Source: Sphaerisporangium sp. TRM90804
Lineage (GTDB): Bacteria > Actinomycetota > Actinomycetes > Streptosporangiales > Streptosporangiaceae
Reading direction: 5' to 3'
NCBI RefSeq assembly: GCF_029846175.1
Contig: NZ_JARWAC010000019.1
Span: forward strand, 62,001 to 126,000
Length of the DNA stretch: 64,000 nt
The position numbers were made by a program, and so were the translations under genes. The number at the start of each line of letters is the position of its first letter. Positions within the stretch are counted from its first letter, which is position 1. Under the pieces are notes generated by a model. It did not search any database and had not been told where the DNA came from. It saw only the letters and a list, made by a program, of their open reading frames with translations. Shown here one piece after another: positions 4,284 through 60,801 of the stretch.

Positions 4284-5338
4284 GGCTTGGGCATCCACTC
4301 GACGTAGAACAGGCCGAGGCCGCCGGCGGCGCACAGGACGGCGACGAGCCAGAACCGGACCACGATGGTGGTCTCGGCCCAGCCCTTGAGCTCGAAGTGG
4401 TGCTGGAGCGGCGCCATGCGGAAGACACGTCTCTTGGTCATCTTGAAGAACCCGACCTGGATGATCACCGAGGCGGTGATGATGACGCACAGGCCGGCCA
4501 GGATGAACAGCAGGAACTGGGTGCGGGTGGTGATGGCCAGGCCGGCCAGCACGCCGCCGAGGGCCAGGGAGCCGGTGTCGCCCATGAAGATCTTCGCGGG
4601 CGGGGCGTTCCACCACAGGAACCCCACCAGGGCGCCGAGCACGGCGGCGGCCACGACCGCGAGGTCGAGCGGGTCGCGCACCCAGTAGCAGTTGGGCCCG
4701 AGCTGGTTGAGGCAGCTGTTGCGCAGCTGCCAGTTGCCGATCAGCACGTACGCGCCGAGCACCACGCCGGTGGCGCCGCTGGCCAGGCCGTCGAGCCCGT
4801 CGGTGAGGTTCACGGCGTTGGAGAAGCCGACGATCATGAACAGGACCCACACCGTGAAGATCACCAGACCGATGGACGGCCCGAAGTCGCGCAGGATGGA
4901 GAACCGCGTCTCGGCCGGCGTGATCGAGTAGGCGTTGGGGAACCGGACGACCAGCACCGCGAAGACGGCGCCGACGATGAGCTGCCCCAGTGCCTTGGCG
5001 CCGCTGCGCAGCCCCAGGCTGCGCTGCTTGTAGATCTTGATGAAGTCGTCGAGGAAGCCGACGGTGGCCAGGCCGGTCATCAGGAACAGCACCAGCAGCG
5101 CCGAGGCCGTGGGCGGTGTCCAGGTGGCCAGATGGGAGCAGATGAACCCGAGCAGCGCGGCGATGACGATCACCGTGCCGCCCATGGTGGGGGTGCCGCG
5201 CTTGTCGTGGTGGCCCTGGGGGCCCTCCTCGCGGATCTCCTGGCCGTAGCCCTTCCGGCTGAAGAGCCTGATCGCCAGCGGGGTGCCGAGCATCGACAAC
5301 AGGAGCGCCGTCGCCGCGGCGACGAGGATGTCCCTCAT
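4280..5338 (-). CDS. mraY: Phospho-MurNAc-pentapeptide translocase MraY
   Basis: This 352-residue, roughly ten-helix membrane protein is MraY, which transfers phospho-MurNAc-pentapeptide to undecaprenyl phosphate to make lipid I. Diagnostic motifs are [16 protein letters not shown], the catalytic [26 protein letters not shown] and the C-terminal [15 protein letters not shown]. It is coupled by ATGA overlaps to murF upstream and murD downstream. Confidence 0.98.
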
Positions 5339-31509: not shown

Positions 31510-31847
31510 ATCCGGGGCGGGCGGCCGAAGCAGGTGACCAGCACGGGCCGCCGAGGCGGGCGACCGAGACACACGGTCGAGGCGGGTGGCCGGGACGGGC
31601 GGCCGAGACGCGCGGTCGGGACGCGCGGTCGGGACGCGCGGTCGGGACGCGCGGTCGGGACGCGCGGTCGGGACGCGCGGTCGGAGTGGGTGGTCGGAGT
31701 GGGTGGTCGGAGTGGGTGGTCGAGACACGCGGCCGGGACGGGCGGTCGAGCCGGGTGGACCAGACGGGTGGACCAGACGCACGTCCAGGACGCATGGCCG
31801 GGACGGGCGGCCGGAGTGGGTGGCCGAGACGCGCGGTCGGGGCGGGG
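31510..31847. repeat. 13-bp minisatellite, at least 25 units
   Basis: From 31523 to 31847 the sequence is exactly 25 consecutive 13-mers of consensus GGYCGRGACGSGY; 31510-31522 is a more degenerate further unit. Five identical GGTCGGGACGCGC units occupy 31614-31678, and three identical GGTCGGAGTGGGT units 31679-31717. The period is not a multiple of three, so no protein frame is kept, although every frame stays open by composition. The array lies between the divergent AAA ATPase and sulfonate transporter genes. Confidence 0.95.
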
Positions 31848-35794: not shown

Positions 35795-35942
35795 CACGGC
35801 GCCCCGCCACCACGGCCGGGGCGCCTCAGGCGTCCCCGCATCGGATTCACGGCGTCCCCGCCACCATTGGCGGGGGTCTTAAGCGTCCCGGCACCGCGTT
35901 CACGGCGCCCCGCCACCACGGCCGGGGCGCCTCAGGCGTCCC
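35795..35942. repeat. Three 53-bp tandem units, each a terminator-like hairpin
   Basis: Units begin at 35795, 35848 and 35901. The first and third share 42 identical bases and fold as GGCGCCCCG / complementary arm with a short CCACCACG-containing loop. The middle unit has changed on both arms (CCCCGCCA with TTGGCGGGG), so it still folds. The array separates the convergent ssuD and PH-domain genes and is most simply a multiple terminator. Confidence 0.8.
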
Positions 35943-35952
35943 GGCACCGCAG

Positions 35953-39782: not shown

Positions 39783-39784
39783 TC

Positions 39785-39911
39785 GCGCGCTTCCTCCCAT
39801 CCGGACTTTCACCGTCGGTCCCGGATTTCCACCGGGTCAACCGGCCGATGGTTTCGGCCGGGTCGCGGACTGTCACCGCCGGTTCGGAATTGCACCGACC
39901 CCGGAGCACGC
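39785..39911 (-). promoter_or_regulatory. FMN riboswitch (RFN element)
   Basis: The minus strand carries the RFN core: GGTGCAATTCCGAACCGGCG, GTGACAGTCCGCGA, GGTGGAAATCCGGGACCG and ACGGTGAAAGTCCGGATGGG, in the conserved order. P1 closes as GCGTGCT (39911-39905) with AGCGCGC (39791-39785). High FMN is known to turn such operons off. The ~320-nt leader from 39464 to 39784 holds a strong hairpin but no gene I can support. Confidence 0.95.
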
Positions 39912-40556
39912 TGCTCTGTCTTCAGTGTGCCACGCCCGGCAAAGAGGACGTAACCCCACACCCCCTTACCTTGACCAGGCACTTGCCGCCGCAAGACAGG
40001 GGTTGCCCCACCCTCGGGCGACCGTCTTCGGCCGTCCCACGCGCCGGACGGCCGGGCCGTGGCGCGATCGCCAGGCGGCACGCGGGCGGCCACGGCGGCG
40101 GTGCCGCGAAGGGGCGCGCGGGCCGGTGGGGACTGACGGAACAGGCGGGCTCGACGTACGGCCGAACACTCGCGTGGCTGATGGGGCGGGGCGGAACGGC
40201 CCCGTGGCCGCCGGCGCCGGCCGCGGGCGAGCTCGCGGAAGAGCGGATCACCTCTGGCCGTCGGGCCGGGGCGGCCCACCGGATTGCGGATTCCGGGAAT
40301 AACACGGTAAATGCGTCGTAGTCGCGTCATGCTTGGGTCACGGAATCGTGACACCCCGCAATTCCCGCCGAACAGGACGCCGCCTCAGCAATCGCCGCAG
40401 GTCAATCCGGTTATGGGCACGACATCATCGATATCGCGCAACGAACGTCGAAATCGTGTGAACGATGAGGCGCGGACGTTGACCATCGGGTAATAAATTG
40501 CCAAGGTTCCCTCAGGTCAAGATTACCCCGCGATCGATCTTGGTGGCACCCGCACG
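39912..40556. other. Divergent rib / peptide-transporter intergenic region
   Basis: About 645 nt with no supportable gene. It should hold the rib promoter near 39,915-39,955 (minus) and the transporter promoter near 40,470-40,540 (plus). A 16-bp operator-like inverted repeat, GTCACG-GAAT-CGTGAC, lies at 40337-40352. The last ~240 nt are clearly less GC-rich than the surroundings. TTGCCA (40498-40503) could be the -35 of the transporter, but no convincing -10 is seen. Confidence 0.4.
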
Positions 40557-57449: not shown

Positions 57450-57947
57450 TCAGACCATGTACTGGTCGTGGCGGGCGTAGACGTCGGCCCACTCCTCCTC
57501 GGTGAGGGTGCGGCCGGTCTCGGCGATCTCGGCGAGCTCCTCGAAGTACGCCTCGCGCGGCGCGCCCGGGGCGAAGTGCAGCAGCATCGACGCGGGCTCG
57601 CCCGACTCGTTGCGGAAGGCGTGCACCCCGCCCGGCGGCACGTGCAGGAAGTCGCCGGACGTCCCCTCCACCCACCGCGCGCCGTCATAGAACCGCATGG
57701 TGCCGGACAGGACGTAGAACGACTCCGAGATCGTGCGGTGGAAGTGCGCCGACGGACCACTCGGCCTCGTCCCCATCTCCCACCGGTACAGCCCGTACAG
57801 CCCGCCCGTGGAGGCTCCGGTCGCCAGGTAGCGCACCACCGTCCCGGCCGGGCCGCCGATGGTCAGCTCGGCCTCCTGCCCGGACGGACGGTAGACACCG
57901 CTGACCTCCCCCCGCTCGGCGAAGTACCGCGGCTCCGGATACGACAT
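57450..57947 (-). CDS. Cupin domain protein
   Basis: This 165-residue protein has a double-stranded beta-helix: HFHRTISESFYVLSGTMRFYDG (cupin motif 1 with His, His and Glu) and GDFLHVPPGGVHAFRN (motif 2 with His). The metal-binding set is intact. The ATG at 57947 has AGAGGAG upstream. Its substrate is unknown; small proteins of this kind include sugar isomerases, quercetinase-like oxygenases and binding proteins. Confidence 0.85.
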   Translation of the reverse strand: MSYPEPRYFAERGEVSGVYRPSGQEAELTIGGPAGTVVRYLATGASTGGLYGLYRWEMGTRPSGPSAHFHRTISESFYVLSGTMRFYDGARWVEGTSGDFLHVPPGGVHAFRNESGEPASMLLHFAPGAPREAYFEELAEIAETGRTLTEEEWADVYARHDQYMV

Positions 57948-58173
57948 GCCTGCTCCTCTCGCACTGATCACCATCACCATGTCGCTCAACCCTAGATCCC
58001 CCCGCATCGAAAATCTGTAGTGGCTGAAGTAGACATGTGCGCCCGGTGGAGCTAGAGTTCCTGTCATCGCAAGGAACGGATCCACGAGGGCAGAGCAGTG
58101 CAGGCAACACGACGAACTGCCCGGACGAACGTGGAGAGCAAAGACGACGAAGTAAAGACGGATCAGGTTGACC
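57948..58173. other. Cupin upstream region and lead-in to the repeat array
   Basis: About 226 nt holding the cupin promoter region (minus; TAGGGT near 57,990-57,995 is a possible -10) and, on the plus strand, GTTCCT/AGGAAC inverted repeat arms at about 58,050-58,075. A degenerate ACGAAGTAAAGACGG (58148-58162) resembles the loop of the repeat units that follow. No gene is supportable. Confidence 0.4.
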
Positions 58174-58424
58174 GGCAGAAGGTCGGACGTGCCAGGGCCA
58201 GCGAACGAGTAAAGGCCCCAGCCGTGGACGCGCTGCCACAGCAGTAGCAGTGAACGGGCAGAAGGTCGGACGTGCCAGGGCCGGTGCACGAGTAAAGGCT
58301 CCAGCCGTGGACGCGCTGCCACAGCGGTAGAAGTGAAGCAGTGAACAGGTAGAAGGTCGGACGTGCCAGGGCCAGCGCACGAGTAAGGGTCCCGGCCGTG
58401 GACGAGCAGCTGCGGTAGTGACGC
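58174..58424 (+). repeat. Three tandem 83-91-bp structured units
   Basis: Units begin at 58174, 58257 and 58348 with GGCAGAAGGTCGGACGTGCC (GGTAGAAGG in the third). Each then has a 5-bp stem around a 14-nt loop containing ACGAGTAA: GGGCC with GGCCC (unit 1), GGCTC (unit 2) and GGTCC (unit 3). The changed bases keep pairing as G-U on the plus strand. Units 1 and 2 also share GTGG-acgcgctg-CCAC. No likely protein is encoded. A plus-strand RNA is inferred. Confidence 0.8.
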
Positions 58425-58546
58425 ATGAGGTCGATGAAGTAGAGATAGCGAAAGGAGCGTTGAACGCCATCGGGATCGCCCGTCGCCGGCTGGTTTCAGC
58501 CGCACGGGTGCCGCGACTTCACGTATTGGACGGTGGTCTACGGTCA

Positions 58547-58690
58547 CGCGAAAGCGATCCCCGCATCCCCGCCCGCTTAGGGCGGCCAATGCGGAAGCAA
58601 CAGGCCGGCCCCAGGGCCGGTAGATGGTGTTGAACCTCGCGGGCCCCGGCGCAACTTGGCGCCGGGGCCCCTGTCCGCATTCGGGAAGGG
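58547..58690 (+). promoter_or_regulatory. Candidate cis-regulatory RNA in the MerR gene leader
   Basis: A CGC-GAAA-GCG hairpin (58547-58556) is followed by CCGCAT (58561-58566), hairpin CCGCCC/GGGCGG (58569-58585), ATGCGG (58589-58594), hairpin CCGGCC/GGCCGG (58605-58620), a perfect 12-bp hairpin with loop AACTTG (58641-58670), then CCGCAT again (58675-58680) beside the ribosome-binding site GGGAAGGG (58683-58690). ATGCGG can pair with either CCGCAT but not both. This is switch-like; no known riboswitch class is recognised. Confidence 0.55.
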
Positions 58691-58693
58691 TGT

Positions 58694-59143
58694 ATGGATC
58701 AAGCGTTGATGACGTCGGCCGTCCGATCGGGGTCCCGGCTCCGCGACACCGCCGACAAGGCTGGAACGGCCGGCGAGGCCGAACCCGCGGGCAGGGCCGA
58801 CGGCCTTCCCGCCACGCCGAGTGACATCTCCGGTCACCGGTTCGACGATGACGACTACCCCGCCTACAGCATGGGCCGCGCGGCCGAGATCCTCGGCGTC
58901 ACCCCCGCGTTCCTCCGCAACCTCGGCGCGGCCCGACTGATCGAGCCGCAGCGCTCCGAGGGCGGCCACCGCCGCTACTCGCGCTACCAGCTCCGCCTGG
59001 CCGCCCGCGCCCGCGAGCTGGTCGACCAGGGCATCGCCCTGGAGCCCGCCTGCCGCATCATCATCCTGGAAGACCAGCTCACCGAAGCCCTGCGCATCAA
59101 CGCCGAACTCCAGCAGGCCCGCGACCGACGATCCGAGCCCTGA
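58694..59143 (+). CDS. MerR-type HTH regulator
   Basis: This 149-residue protein has a ~50-residue disordered N-terminus, then a MerR HTH and wing (YSMGRAAEILGVTPAFLRNLGAARLIEPQ followed by EGGHRRYSRYQL, ~58-97) and a short helix (RARELVDQGIALEPACRIIILEDQLTEALRIN). It lacks a ligand domain, as in the widespread small actinomycete MerR/BldC-like regulators. The ATG at 58694 has GGAAGG 4 nt upstream. It is preceded by the structured leader and tandem repeats. Confidence 0.88.
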   Translation: MDQALMTSAVRSGSRLRDTADKAGTAGEAEPAGRADGLPATPSDISGHRFDDDDYPAYSMGRAAEILGVTPAFLRNLGAARLIEPQRSEGGHRRYSRYQLRLAARARELVDQGIALEPACRIIILEDQLTEALRINAELQQARDRRSEP

Positions 59144-59156
59144 CCCGCAAACGTAT

Positions 59157-59205
59157 CCGGCCTCCCTCGTCCGTCACCCAGCACGAGTGACGGTACGGAG
59201 GCCGG
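59157..59205. terminator. Bidirectional terminator between merR-type gene and rsmB
   Basis: Two nested perfect stems, CCGGCCTCC (59157-59165)/GGAGGCCGG (59197-59205) and CCGTCAC (59171-59177)/GTGACGG (59187-59193), form a long interrupted hairpin between the convergent genes. Confidence 0.75.
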
Positions 59206-59220
59206 TCGGCGCGGGTCCTT

Positions 59221-60801
59221 TCACGAGACGCGGCGCAGGAGGGAGAGGAACATGGCGTCGGTGCCGTGGCGGTGCGGCCAGAACTGGGCGTACGGGGCCT
59301 CGCCCAGGTCGTCGGCCTCGGGGAGGAACGCGCGGGCGTCCAGCACCTCCACGCCCTGGAGCCGCTTGGCGACGGACTCGACGACGGCGCGGGTCTCGGC
59401 CAGGTGCGGCGTGCACGTCACGTAGGCGACCACGCCGCCCGGGCGCACGGCCTCCAGCGCGGAGCCGAGCAGGCGCCGCTGGAGGGCCGCGAAGTCGGGC
59501 ACGCTCTCGGGGGCGCGGCGCCAGCGGGCCTCCGGGCGGCGGCGCAGCGCGCCCAGGCCCGTGCACGGCGCGTCGACCAGCACGCGGTCGAACGACGCGG
59601 GCCGCCAGGCGGGCTCGGTGCCGTCGGCGGCGACCACCCCGGCCCGCCGCACGGTGCGCTGGACCAGCCGGGCGCGGTGCAGGCGCTGGTCGGCCGCCAG
59701 CAGGTGGCGGTCGTCGCCGGCCAGCGAGTCGAGCAGGCCCGCCTTGCCGCCTGGGCCGGCGCACATGTCGAGCCAGAGCCGGTCGGAGCCCTCGACGGGC
59801 ACCCGGGTGAGCGCCAGGGCGACGAGCTGGCTGGCCTCGTCCTGGACGGCCGCGCGCCCCTCGGCGACGGCCCGGACGGCGCCGGGGTCGCCGTCGGGCA
59901 GGTAGGCGGCGTAGGGCGAGTAACGGGCCGGCTGGGCGCCCGCCTCAAGCAGCTCCTCGACCGAGCCGCGCCCGGGCCAGGCGACCAGGGTCACGCCGGG
60001 GCGCTCGTTGTCGGCGGCGAGCAGCGCCGCCGTCTCCTCCAGGTCGCCGCCCACCGCGTCACGCAGGGCCGAGGTGATCCACCTCGGGTGGCTGTGGGTG
60101 ACGGCGAGGTGGCCGATGGGGTCCTTCTCGACGTCGGGCGCGACGATCGGCAGCCACTGGCCGAGGTCGCGGTTGGCGACCTTGCGCAGGATGGCGTTGG
60201 CGAACTTGGCGGCCCCCGCGCCGACGCGCAGCCGCACGAGGTCGACGGTGGCGCTCACCGCCGCGTGCGGCGGCACCCGGGTCTTCAGAAGCTGGTGGAC
60301 GCCGATGCGCATGGCGTCCAGCAGCGGCGGGTCGATGTCCTCGGGCGGACGGTCGCTGCACGCGGCGATGATCTCGTCATAGGTACCCAGGCCGCGCAGC
60401 GTGCCGTAGGCCAGCTCGGTCGCCAGCGCGGCGTCCCGTCCGCCGAGCCTGCGCTCACGCAGCAGCGAGGGCATCAGCAGGTTGGCGTAGGCGTCCCGCT
60501 CGTCGACGGCCCTGAGCAGGTCGTAGGCCACGTTCCGCGCCTCATCCCGCACCACCCCCGACTTCCCGCGCGGCCCGCCACGCCCTTGCCCCCCTCGGCC
60601 ACGCCCCTTGGGCCCCTCGGTCACGGGGTTACGCCCTTCGCCCGCTCCCCGGGCGTCACGAGCCTCAGGACCGCCCCGGGCGTCACGCCCCTGGCCACCA
60701 CGACCCTGGGCTGCTCCCTGAGCGCCACGCCCCTCGGCCCCACCCCGGGGGTTGCGCCCCTTGCCCGCCGGGCCGTCGGGGCGGCCTCCCCCTTGTGTCA
60801 C
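59221..60801 (-). CDS. rsmB: 16S rRNA (cytosine(967)-C5)-methyltransferase RsmB with RG-rich N-terminal extension
   Basis: This 526-residue protein contains a NusB-like RNA-binding domain (~85-215, RDEARNVAYDLLRAVDERDAYAN) and a SAM methyltransferase (DMCAGPGGKAGLLDSLA; catalytic cysteines in VDAPCTGLGALRRRPE and VAYVTCTPHLAET). The first ~80 residues are Arg/Gly-rich (GRGAQGAAQGRGGQGRDARG and similar), not part of the usual domain set. It lies 19 nt after fmt. Confidence 0.94.
   Translation of the reverse strand: MTQGGGRPDGPAGKGRNPRGGAEGRGAQGAAQGRGGQGRDARGGPEARDARGAGEGRNPVTEGPKGRGRGGQGRGGPRGKSGVVRDEARNVAYDLLRAVDERDAYANLLMPSLLRERRLGGRDAALATELAYGTLRGLGTYDEIIAACSDRPPEDIDPPLLDAMRIGVHQLLKTRVPPHAAVSATVDLVRLRVGAGAAKFANAILRKVANRDLGQWLPIVAPDVEKDPIGHLAVTHSHPRWITSALRDAVGGDLEETAALLAADNERPGVTLVAWPGRGSVEELLEAGAQPARYSPYAAYLPDGDPGAVRAVAEGRAAVQDEASQLVALALTRVPVEGSDRLWLDMCAGPGGKAGLLDSLAGDDRHLLAADQRLHRARLVQRTVRRAGVVAADGTEPAWRPASFDRVLVDAPCTGLGALRRRPEARWRRAPESVPDFAALQRRLLGSALEAVRPGGVVAYVTCTPHLAETRAVVESVAKRLQGVEVLDARAFLPEADDLGEAPYAQFWPHRHGTDAMFLSLLRRVS

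Follow-up and report, generated by a model that had tools for sequence, protein, structure and literature searches.

The window analysed here is a stretch of 64,000 nt from Sphaerisporangium sp. TRM90804. The region of interest lies on its plus strand, upstream of a small MerR-family regulator gene of 149 aa (58694-59143; Pfam MerR_1, E 1e-9). This gene is preceded by a predicted leader of ~620 nt (~58,065-58,693), in which we read, from 5′ to 3′, a hairpin (58081-58135), three tandem hairpin units, a conserved junction core (58464-58631), a terminal GC hairpin (58641-58670) and what is probably the MerR ribosome-binding site, GGGAAGGG (58683-58690). The 5′ hairpin is formed by TCCACG...CGTGGA and GGGCAG...CTGCCC and has a fold z of -1.96, and the terminal hairpin is a perfect 12-bp inverted repeat, GGGCCCCGGCGC/GCGCCGGGGCCC. 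A promoter block at 58011-58058, consisting of the upstream box AAATCTGTAGTGG, TAGACA (58030-58035), a 17-nt spacer and TAGAGT (58053-58058), would place the transcript start near 58065. The column profile that delineates this block was made from 122 distinct sequences picked with the motif, so the conservation inside the motif is partly due to that selection. With up to three mismatches the block is found at one place in the source genome. A MerR operator that would span the -35 box as an inverted repeat was also considered; the best mean symmetry was only 0.48, and we do not claim it. The spacing of the repeated modules (83 versus 91 nt) and the length changes in the hairpin loops of the core are not in multiples of three; as far as these lengths tell, they speak against a coding leader and against the conserved upstream reading frame expected of a leader-peptide attenuator.

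The repeat search of the window returned three tandem copies at 58171-58253, 58254-58336 and 58345-58427, spaced by 83 and 91 nt, with copies 2 and 3 being 92% and 77% identical to copy 1, respectively. The corresponding Tandem Repeats Finder row (58174-58404, score 331) ranks first among 135 rows in the window. Two further repeats of the window lie elsewhere: a GC-rich tandem array at 31543-31846, with periods of 13, 26, 39 and 52 nt around CGGTCGGGACG, possibly either structured or the coding sequence of a repetitive protein, and a 53-nt unit present three times at 35795-35951 with 80% matches. The original prediction described the array at 58174-58424 as three units with a GGGCC stem strand, a 14-nt loop and 3′ arms reading GGCCC, GGCTC and GGTCC, and both the sequence and the repeat search agree with it. 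Its 5-bp stem is real, but it is merely the apical tip of an irregular hairpin of ~65 nt, with the outline GGCAG-AAG-GUC-GG-ACG-U-GCC-(A/G)GGGCC-loop-GG(C/U)(C/U)C-GGC-CGU-G-GAC-GCG-CUGCC. Likewise, the shared sequence ACGAGTAA is present in all three units of the window, but among 33 units compared it is found in these three only. The array had also been regarded as separate from the leader of the MerR gene, whereas the units turn out to be a repeated module inside that leader.

On the plus strand, unit 1 spans 58172-58246 (apical stem GGGCC 58195-58199/GGCCC 58214-58218), unit 2, with the 3′ arm GGCTC, spans 58255-58329, and unit 3, with the 3′ arm GGTCC, spans 58346-58420. They match our unit covariance model, R2, at 82.4, 78.2 and 74.1 bits, all three being part of its training set. 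Folding of the plus strand gives units 1 and 2 the same shape, while the outer stem of unit 3 is partly altered. The folding energy z values of units 1-3 are -2.0, -0.5 and -1.1 on the plus strand and -1.5, -0.4 and +0.6 on the minus strand. Folding energy by itself is poor evidence for RNA structure in the units; the strength comes from comparison with relatives.

R2, which was built from 33 units and contains 20 base pairs, gave 70 matches in 53 of the 100 loci searched and none in the other 47, with one unit in 40 loci, two in nine and three in four. All but one of the 70 matches fall within leaders on the sense strand; the exception (L046:6252-6320) is one of seven matches with E > 0.1, which were kept in the 70-row counts. 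Across these rows, 92.4% of the base-pair cells are paired and two-sided changes occur in 18/20 pairs, whereas none of 500 shuffles was as good and slid controls reached only 29.5-50.6% pairing. The strong rows (E < 0.01; 51 distinct, from 37 loci) show the same 92.4% over 1000 cells, with 14/20 pairs changing on both sides. Both the 70-row alignment and the core alignment described below were fitted to their own models, which biases them towards structure. The narrower 33-unit alignment gives modest support (90.8% paired, two-sided change in 5/20 pairs, 2/500 shuffles equal). Just below the tip, pairing is frequently lost at three positions (in 22, 13 and 25 of ~67 cells each), and we therefore take this part of the unit hairpin to be a variable internal loop. 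By eye, Streptomyces leaders such as that of L097 also appear to hold a homologous hairpin that R2 misses.

The strand preference can be read from the same rows. At the five apical pairs, G-U occurs in 32 cells and A-C in one (n=315), and in the 51 strongest rows the numbers are 20 and zero (n=242); when all 20 pairs are counted, these strongest rows hold 69 and 29. On the minus strand each G-U would become a mismatch, and the plus-strand sense is therefore favoured. The asymmetry, which is clearest at the hairpin tip, is supported by these counts, with the related rows not being independent events. The original prediction of selection on a plus-strand RNA fold thus gains support from the excess of G-U over A-C at the apical pairs together with the compensatory changes in relatives. 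It had suggested a covariance-model search for covarying stems and had named unrelated, unpaired sequence at homologous loci as the outcome that would speak against it. The stems do covary, and pairing is kept in the relatives.

An ordinary DNA repeat, be it mobile, REP-like or produced by replication slippage, would need no RNA function. Slippage does make tandem copies, and the detected copy number varies from one to three, but the compensatory changes and the fixed position of the units relative to the core make this explanation extremely improbable. Nor does the array behave as a dispersed repeat of the REP, CRISPR or mobile kind: the 8.3-Mb source genome holds four R2 units, all in two leaders, the three described here and a single one in a leader located on a different contig. 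This second leader (L002; contig C7, 38911-39190) is diverged, carries one module and has its own MerR gene. In L074 and L020 other hairpins seem to be repeated too, e.g. ACCGGTGTCCCGCCCGCACGGGG in the Nocardiopsis locus L074, and modules may thus have been multiplied on more than one occasion.

Downstream of the units lies the junction core of 168 nt, which begins with ACGCCATCAGGATCGCCCG, ends with GATGGTGTT and contains a closing stem (ACGCCATC/GATGGTGT), an inner stem (GGATCG/CGATCC) and four hairpins. It was modelled as R1, with 168 positions and 38 pairs, from 21 sequences, 18 of them taken as Streptosporangiales and three as Streptomyces; the core of the window scores 177 bits and belongs to this training set. 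Searching the 100 loci with R1 gave 88 matches (86 distinct), a count that includes three weak matches, namely that of L026 (26 bits) and one additional hit each in L071 and L066 (<20 bits). In the core rows 95.4% of the cells are paired, two-sided changes occur in 25/38 pairs and none of 500 shuffles was as good, whereas slid structures were only 27.8-47.3% paired. An alignment made by MAFFT without reference to structure was also used. An initial pattern count had given 71 core loci, including at least one false pick (L102), and 53 after thinning; leaving out L022, L037, L076 and L102 gave an alignment of 49 rows, and later counts are model-based. From these 49 rows RNAalifold predicted the same closing and inner stems, with two-sided changes in 11/33 predicted pairs and a small covariation term (-1.57 of -31.05 kcal/mol). 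Many strongly conserved bases of the core, e.g. GGTGGTCTACGGTCA, lie outside the drawn stems. Thus, the core and the unit both show compensatory changes above the shuffled and slid controls, as expected for conserved structured RNA.

We then consider how widely the leader occurs. A DNA search with 58080-58690 matched 16 of 60 genomes, of which one is the source genome and another (G043) has just a short hit, taken to be chance; the best-kept part was the stretch from the end of the array to the MerR gene and not the array. Searches of larger genome sets for the core were run under stricter filters, at the cost of missing weak matches. Under these filters the core was present in 184/297 Streptosporangiales genomes, and no match was obtained in the remaining 113, two of which are from the source genus. 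It was also present, in one to six copies each, in 170/199 genomes of a genus that we take as Streptomyces because its leaders resemble those of named Streptomyces loci. In a sample of the phylum only 11/396 genomes had it, the source genome and ten in one genus, and the family therefore seems not to be phylum-wide. A search of viral contigs with the MerR profile produced 135 pattern matches and no relative. In Streptomyces sp. SCUT-3, two same-strand tRNA-Met genes (L070:3163-3237 and 4545-4619) flank the leader-MerR pair, a possible sign of an integrated element.

The linkage to the MerR gene was seen from both directions. Starting from the protein, the core lies upstream of the MerR gene in 66 of 80 loci, these being the best 80 of 585 confirmed relatives. 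Starting from the RNA, a MerR signature follows within 900 nt downstream in 65 of 69 loci, which repeat at least six places of the DNA search and of which others may be strains of MerR-first loci. Behind the well-kept cores of L122, L123, L163 and L167 an intact MerR gene was not seen; in L122 and L123 the downstream start is MerR-like and then breaks off. The leader thus holds a fixed place before one gene family, as a cis-regulatory leader would. The recurring layout is a promoter block, a 5′ hairpin, one or more hairpin units, the core, a GC hairpin, a ribosome-binding site and the small MerR gene. In the loci read, the 5′ hairpin often ends in GAACTGCC, which occurs 49 times in the 5′ regions of 80 leaders against 0.2 expected from shuffles, and the linkers between modules are rich in GCAGTA (121 occurrences in the same regions against 9 expected, yet present in 48/80 only). 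The GCAGTA repeats are candidate sites for protein binding or for pairing with an ACUGCC strand.

The 14 MerR loci that lack the core comprise three of Rhodococcus (L052, L094 and L095, of which two come from a single metagenome assembly), all six of Nocardia (L067-L069, L073, L078 and L103), two of Kribbella (L081, with 113 nt upstream only, and L096) and three of Streptomyces (L082, L101 and L104). Ten of the 14 still have the promoter block, which at up to three mismatches precedes MerR genes in Nocardia, Rhodococcus and Kribbella loci alike. GAACTGCC is kept in the three Rhodococcus loci and in Nocardia L103 and is absent from Nocardia L067, and the terminal GC hairpin is kept in all five core-less loci that were read base by base. 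Because the promoter block and the terminal hairpin persist where the core is missing, the ends of the leader look oldest, and a leader can lack the core.

Of the 88 core matches, 85 have a strong hairpin within 95 nt on their 3′ side, L026 having been excluded from the 85 by hand. The tails of this hairpin, e.g. CTGTCCGCATT, are without the U run that follows the GC hairpin of an intrinsic terminator. Such a hairpin at the leader end could suit a free-standing small RNA, in which transcription would end at the terminal hairpin, the leader would act in trans, perhaps as a ligand of cold-shock proteins, and the MerR gene would be expressed by read-through. The GCAGTA copies between the hairpins could then be an array of binding sites. 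We regard this as quite improbable, given the tight MerR linkage from both the protein-first and the RNA-first searches and a ribosome-binding site that begins 13 nt after the hairpin in the window.

The explanation we favour, with moderate confidence, is that a structured 5′ leader of ~620 nt controls a small MerR/HspR-like regulator in cis and that the repeats are one of its hairpin modules, multiplied locally. Comparison across loci shows the leader domains, their covarying folds, the sense strand, the linkage to MerR and a module number of one to three where modules are detected. As to how such a leader may work, it would be transcribed from the conserved promoter block, and stress, in the form of temperature or of the state of RNA chaperones or helicases, would make the core, together with the terminal GC hairpin, change between two states. 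One state would stop or starve the MerR message and the other would let it be made, with extra modules possibly tuning the response. The switch point would most likely be the terminal hairpin directly 5′ of the ribosome-binding site. Whether the message is stopped there or passes would depend on a structural change in the core or the 5′ domain, brought about by temperature, a ligand or the action of an RNA chaperone or helicase. One candidate for such a switch, an alternative pairing between the tail and the P5 arm of the core (AATGCGGA/TCCGCATT in the window), was rejected: native duplexes were no stronger than swapped ones, swaps being at least as strong in 193/200 cases for 85 loci and in 127/200 for a 42-locus subset. 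This result counts against the favoured explanation, as do the 14 of 80 MerR loci without the core, the 113 of 297 genomes of the order that gave no core match, the missing U run after the terminal hairpin, and a computed exposure of the ribosome-binding site that is flat in the window and shows just a gradual rise in the seven relatives folded.

A metabolite- or ion-binding riboswitch, with the core as aptamer and the terminal hairpin as expression platform, would likewise place control at this point. The large junction core, with its many bases conserved outside the stems as drawn, and the hairpin at the gene boundary fit such a device, but the same kind of regulator lies downstream in nearly all RNA-first loci, and among the targets seen there was neither a transporter nor an enzyme that might hint at a ligand. 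In addition, one to three module copies in front of an aptamer are unusual. A riboswitch is therefore unlikely in our judgement, though it deserves consideration.

A more specific scheme, which we rate as highly unlikely, is a stress gauge based on strand exchange, in which the modules compete for an anchor strand and their copy number fixes the threshold for refolding of the 5′ domain. The putative anchor, ACUGCC, is found in 51/80 leaders, where it mostly belongs to the 5′ hairpin; the same GGCAG/CUGCC pairing recurs at the ends of the modules, and single-stranded-looking GCAGU repeats number 243 against 50 expected. Each GCAGU repeat could pair with the ACUGCC anchor, so that added modules would be added competitors and copy number would set the threshold. 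From the refolded 5′ domain the signal would travel on to the core and then affect the terminal hairpin, with cold-shock proteins and a helicase setting the rate of exchange.

The link of the favoured cis-acting leader to stress comes from its gene neighbours and from Streptomyces coelicolor. We clustered 493 predicted proteins of the 80 loci, using a simple ORF filter that may miss genes. Besides MerR, the largest families that could be named were DEAD-box helicases (11/80 loci) and cold-shock proteins (7/80), and most of the 80 loci show neither. One cluster of nine ORFs that lie antisense to, overlapping or beside the leader is probably spurious. In the leader-bearing loci L097-L099, the MerR gene is followed by one to three small ORFs and then by a helicase gene on the opposite strand. 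As this gene order fits SCO5917-SCO5920, we infer that they correspond, which suggests that SCO5917 carries a leader of this family. According to the available part of PMC6009599, SCO5917 and SCO4688, called HspR homologues with a role not known, show translational induction when cells go from 30 to 42°C. The 74 translationally heat-induced genes include six cold-shock genes, HspR, SCO4688 and SCO5917, of which SCO5917 responds most strongly, with a 9.2-fold polysome association; as a speculation, the same source places a thermosensor in the coding part, near +63. For an effect of the leader on downstream expression, these heat data on SCO5917 are indirect evidence. In the accessible text of PMC2631018, SCO5917 is lowered by acid shock. 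A table in PMC9534924, itself available in part, lists SCO4684 as a cold-shock protein, SCO4685 as a helicase and SCO4688 as MerR-type. The Streptomyces loci L082 and L104, whose gene order is like that of SCO4684-SCO4688, are without the core, though SCO4688 is reported to be heat-induced, and this speaks against a simple link. In L082, a near-palindrome resembling the box of the leader promoter, ATATCTGTGTCGGCCGCGACAGATAT (L082:1235-1260), lies 5′ of a predicted cold-shock protein gene.

These reports raise the question of a classical RNA thermometer, in which a helix hiding the ribosome-binding site melts on heating. Its main attraction is that the probable orthologue SCO5917 is the most heat-shifted message in the available part of PMC6009599. 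Computed exposure of the ribosome-binding site also rises between 10 and 50°C in 7/7 relatives, by 0.08-0.26, with the largest rises in Streptomyces L063 (0.22 to 0.48) and L098 (0.21 to 0.45). In the window, however, exposure is flat (0.50-0.53 over 10-50°C), the rise from 30 to 42°C in the seven relatives is just 0.01-0.10, a comparison made without control folds and weak either way, and the stems are very GC-rich. We consider such a thermometer very unlikely.

The leader in which we place the repeats would offer a testable cause for the HspR-like SCO5917 being the most polysome-shifted heat-shock message in the available text of PMC6009599. An RNA family found in 170/199 presumed Streptomyces genomes and 184/297 genomes of the order of the source points to an unread control layer in antibiotic producers, and natural leaders, which differ in having one, two or three modules, provide a ready-made dose series for module function.

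The original prediction that the repeats match no known RNA class holds, in that no Rfam 15 family reached its gathering cut-off in the leader. A search of 57900-59300 at E up to 5 gave three matches, all far under the cut-offs, and a search of 18 related loci gave three tRNA matches only. The sole Rfam 15 match in the window is an FMN riboswitch on the minus strand (39783-39913; 94.7 bits against a gathering cut-off of 66.2, E 1.5e-20). No account of the leader RNA was found in the open literature, and since most subscription papers fall outside this scope an earlier mention is possible. The available parts of PMC12096830, PMC9534924, PMC6009599, PMC6637917, PMC2631018, PMC2864571, PMC3765725, PMC4681348 and PMC8079986 contain no description of it; the string 5917 in the accessible text of PMC4681348 is apparently part of a DOI. 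The leader, which lies before a gene-regulator gene in numerous soil actinobacteria, has no match in Rfam.

Several known systems resemble it in part. Like the leaders of cspA-type cold-shock mRNAs, it is long, and genes for cold-shock proteins and DEAD-box helicases lie near some of its loci; unlike them, it has a MerR regulator and not cspA downstream, and no Rfam match. With RNA thermometers it shares the translational heat induction of the probable orthologue SCO5917, yet the computed exposure of its ribosome-binding site is not sharp, being flat in the window and gradual in the relatives. ANTAR-target RNAs are marked by paired six-base loops, which are not evident by inspection in P6 or in the terminal hairpin here. 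They are, from what is available of PMC8164766, also actinobacterial RNAs that act with a protein. A further parallel is offered by the survey of 104 motifs, orphan structured leader RNAs and riboswitch candidates, in PMC2864571, as far as that source is available. Those motifs and the leader described here have in common a conserved fold, covariation and a fixed place before one gene family; they differ in that 'MerR' is absent from the available main text of the survey, in that this leader matches no Rfam family, and in that it carries one to three tandem modules.
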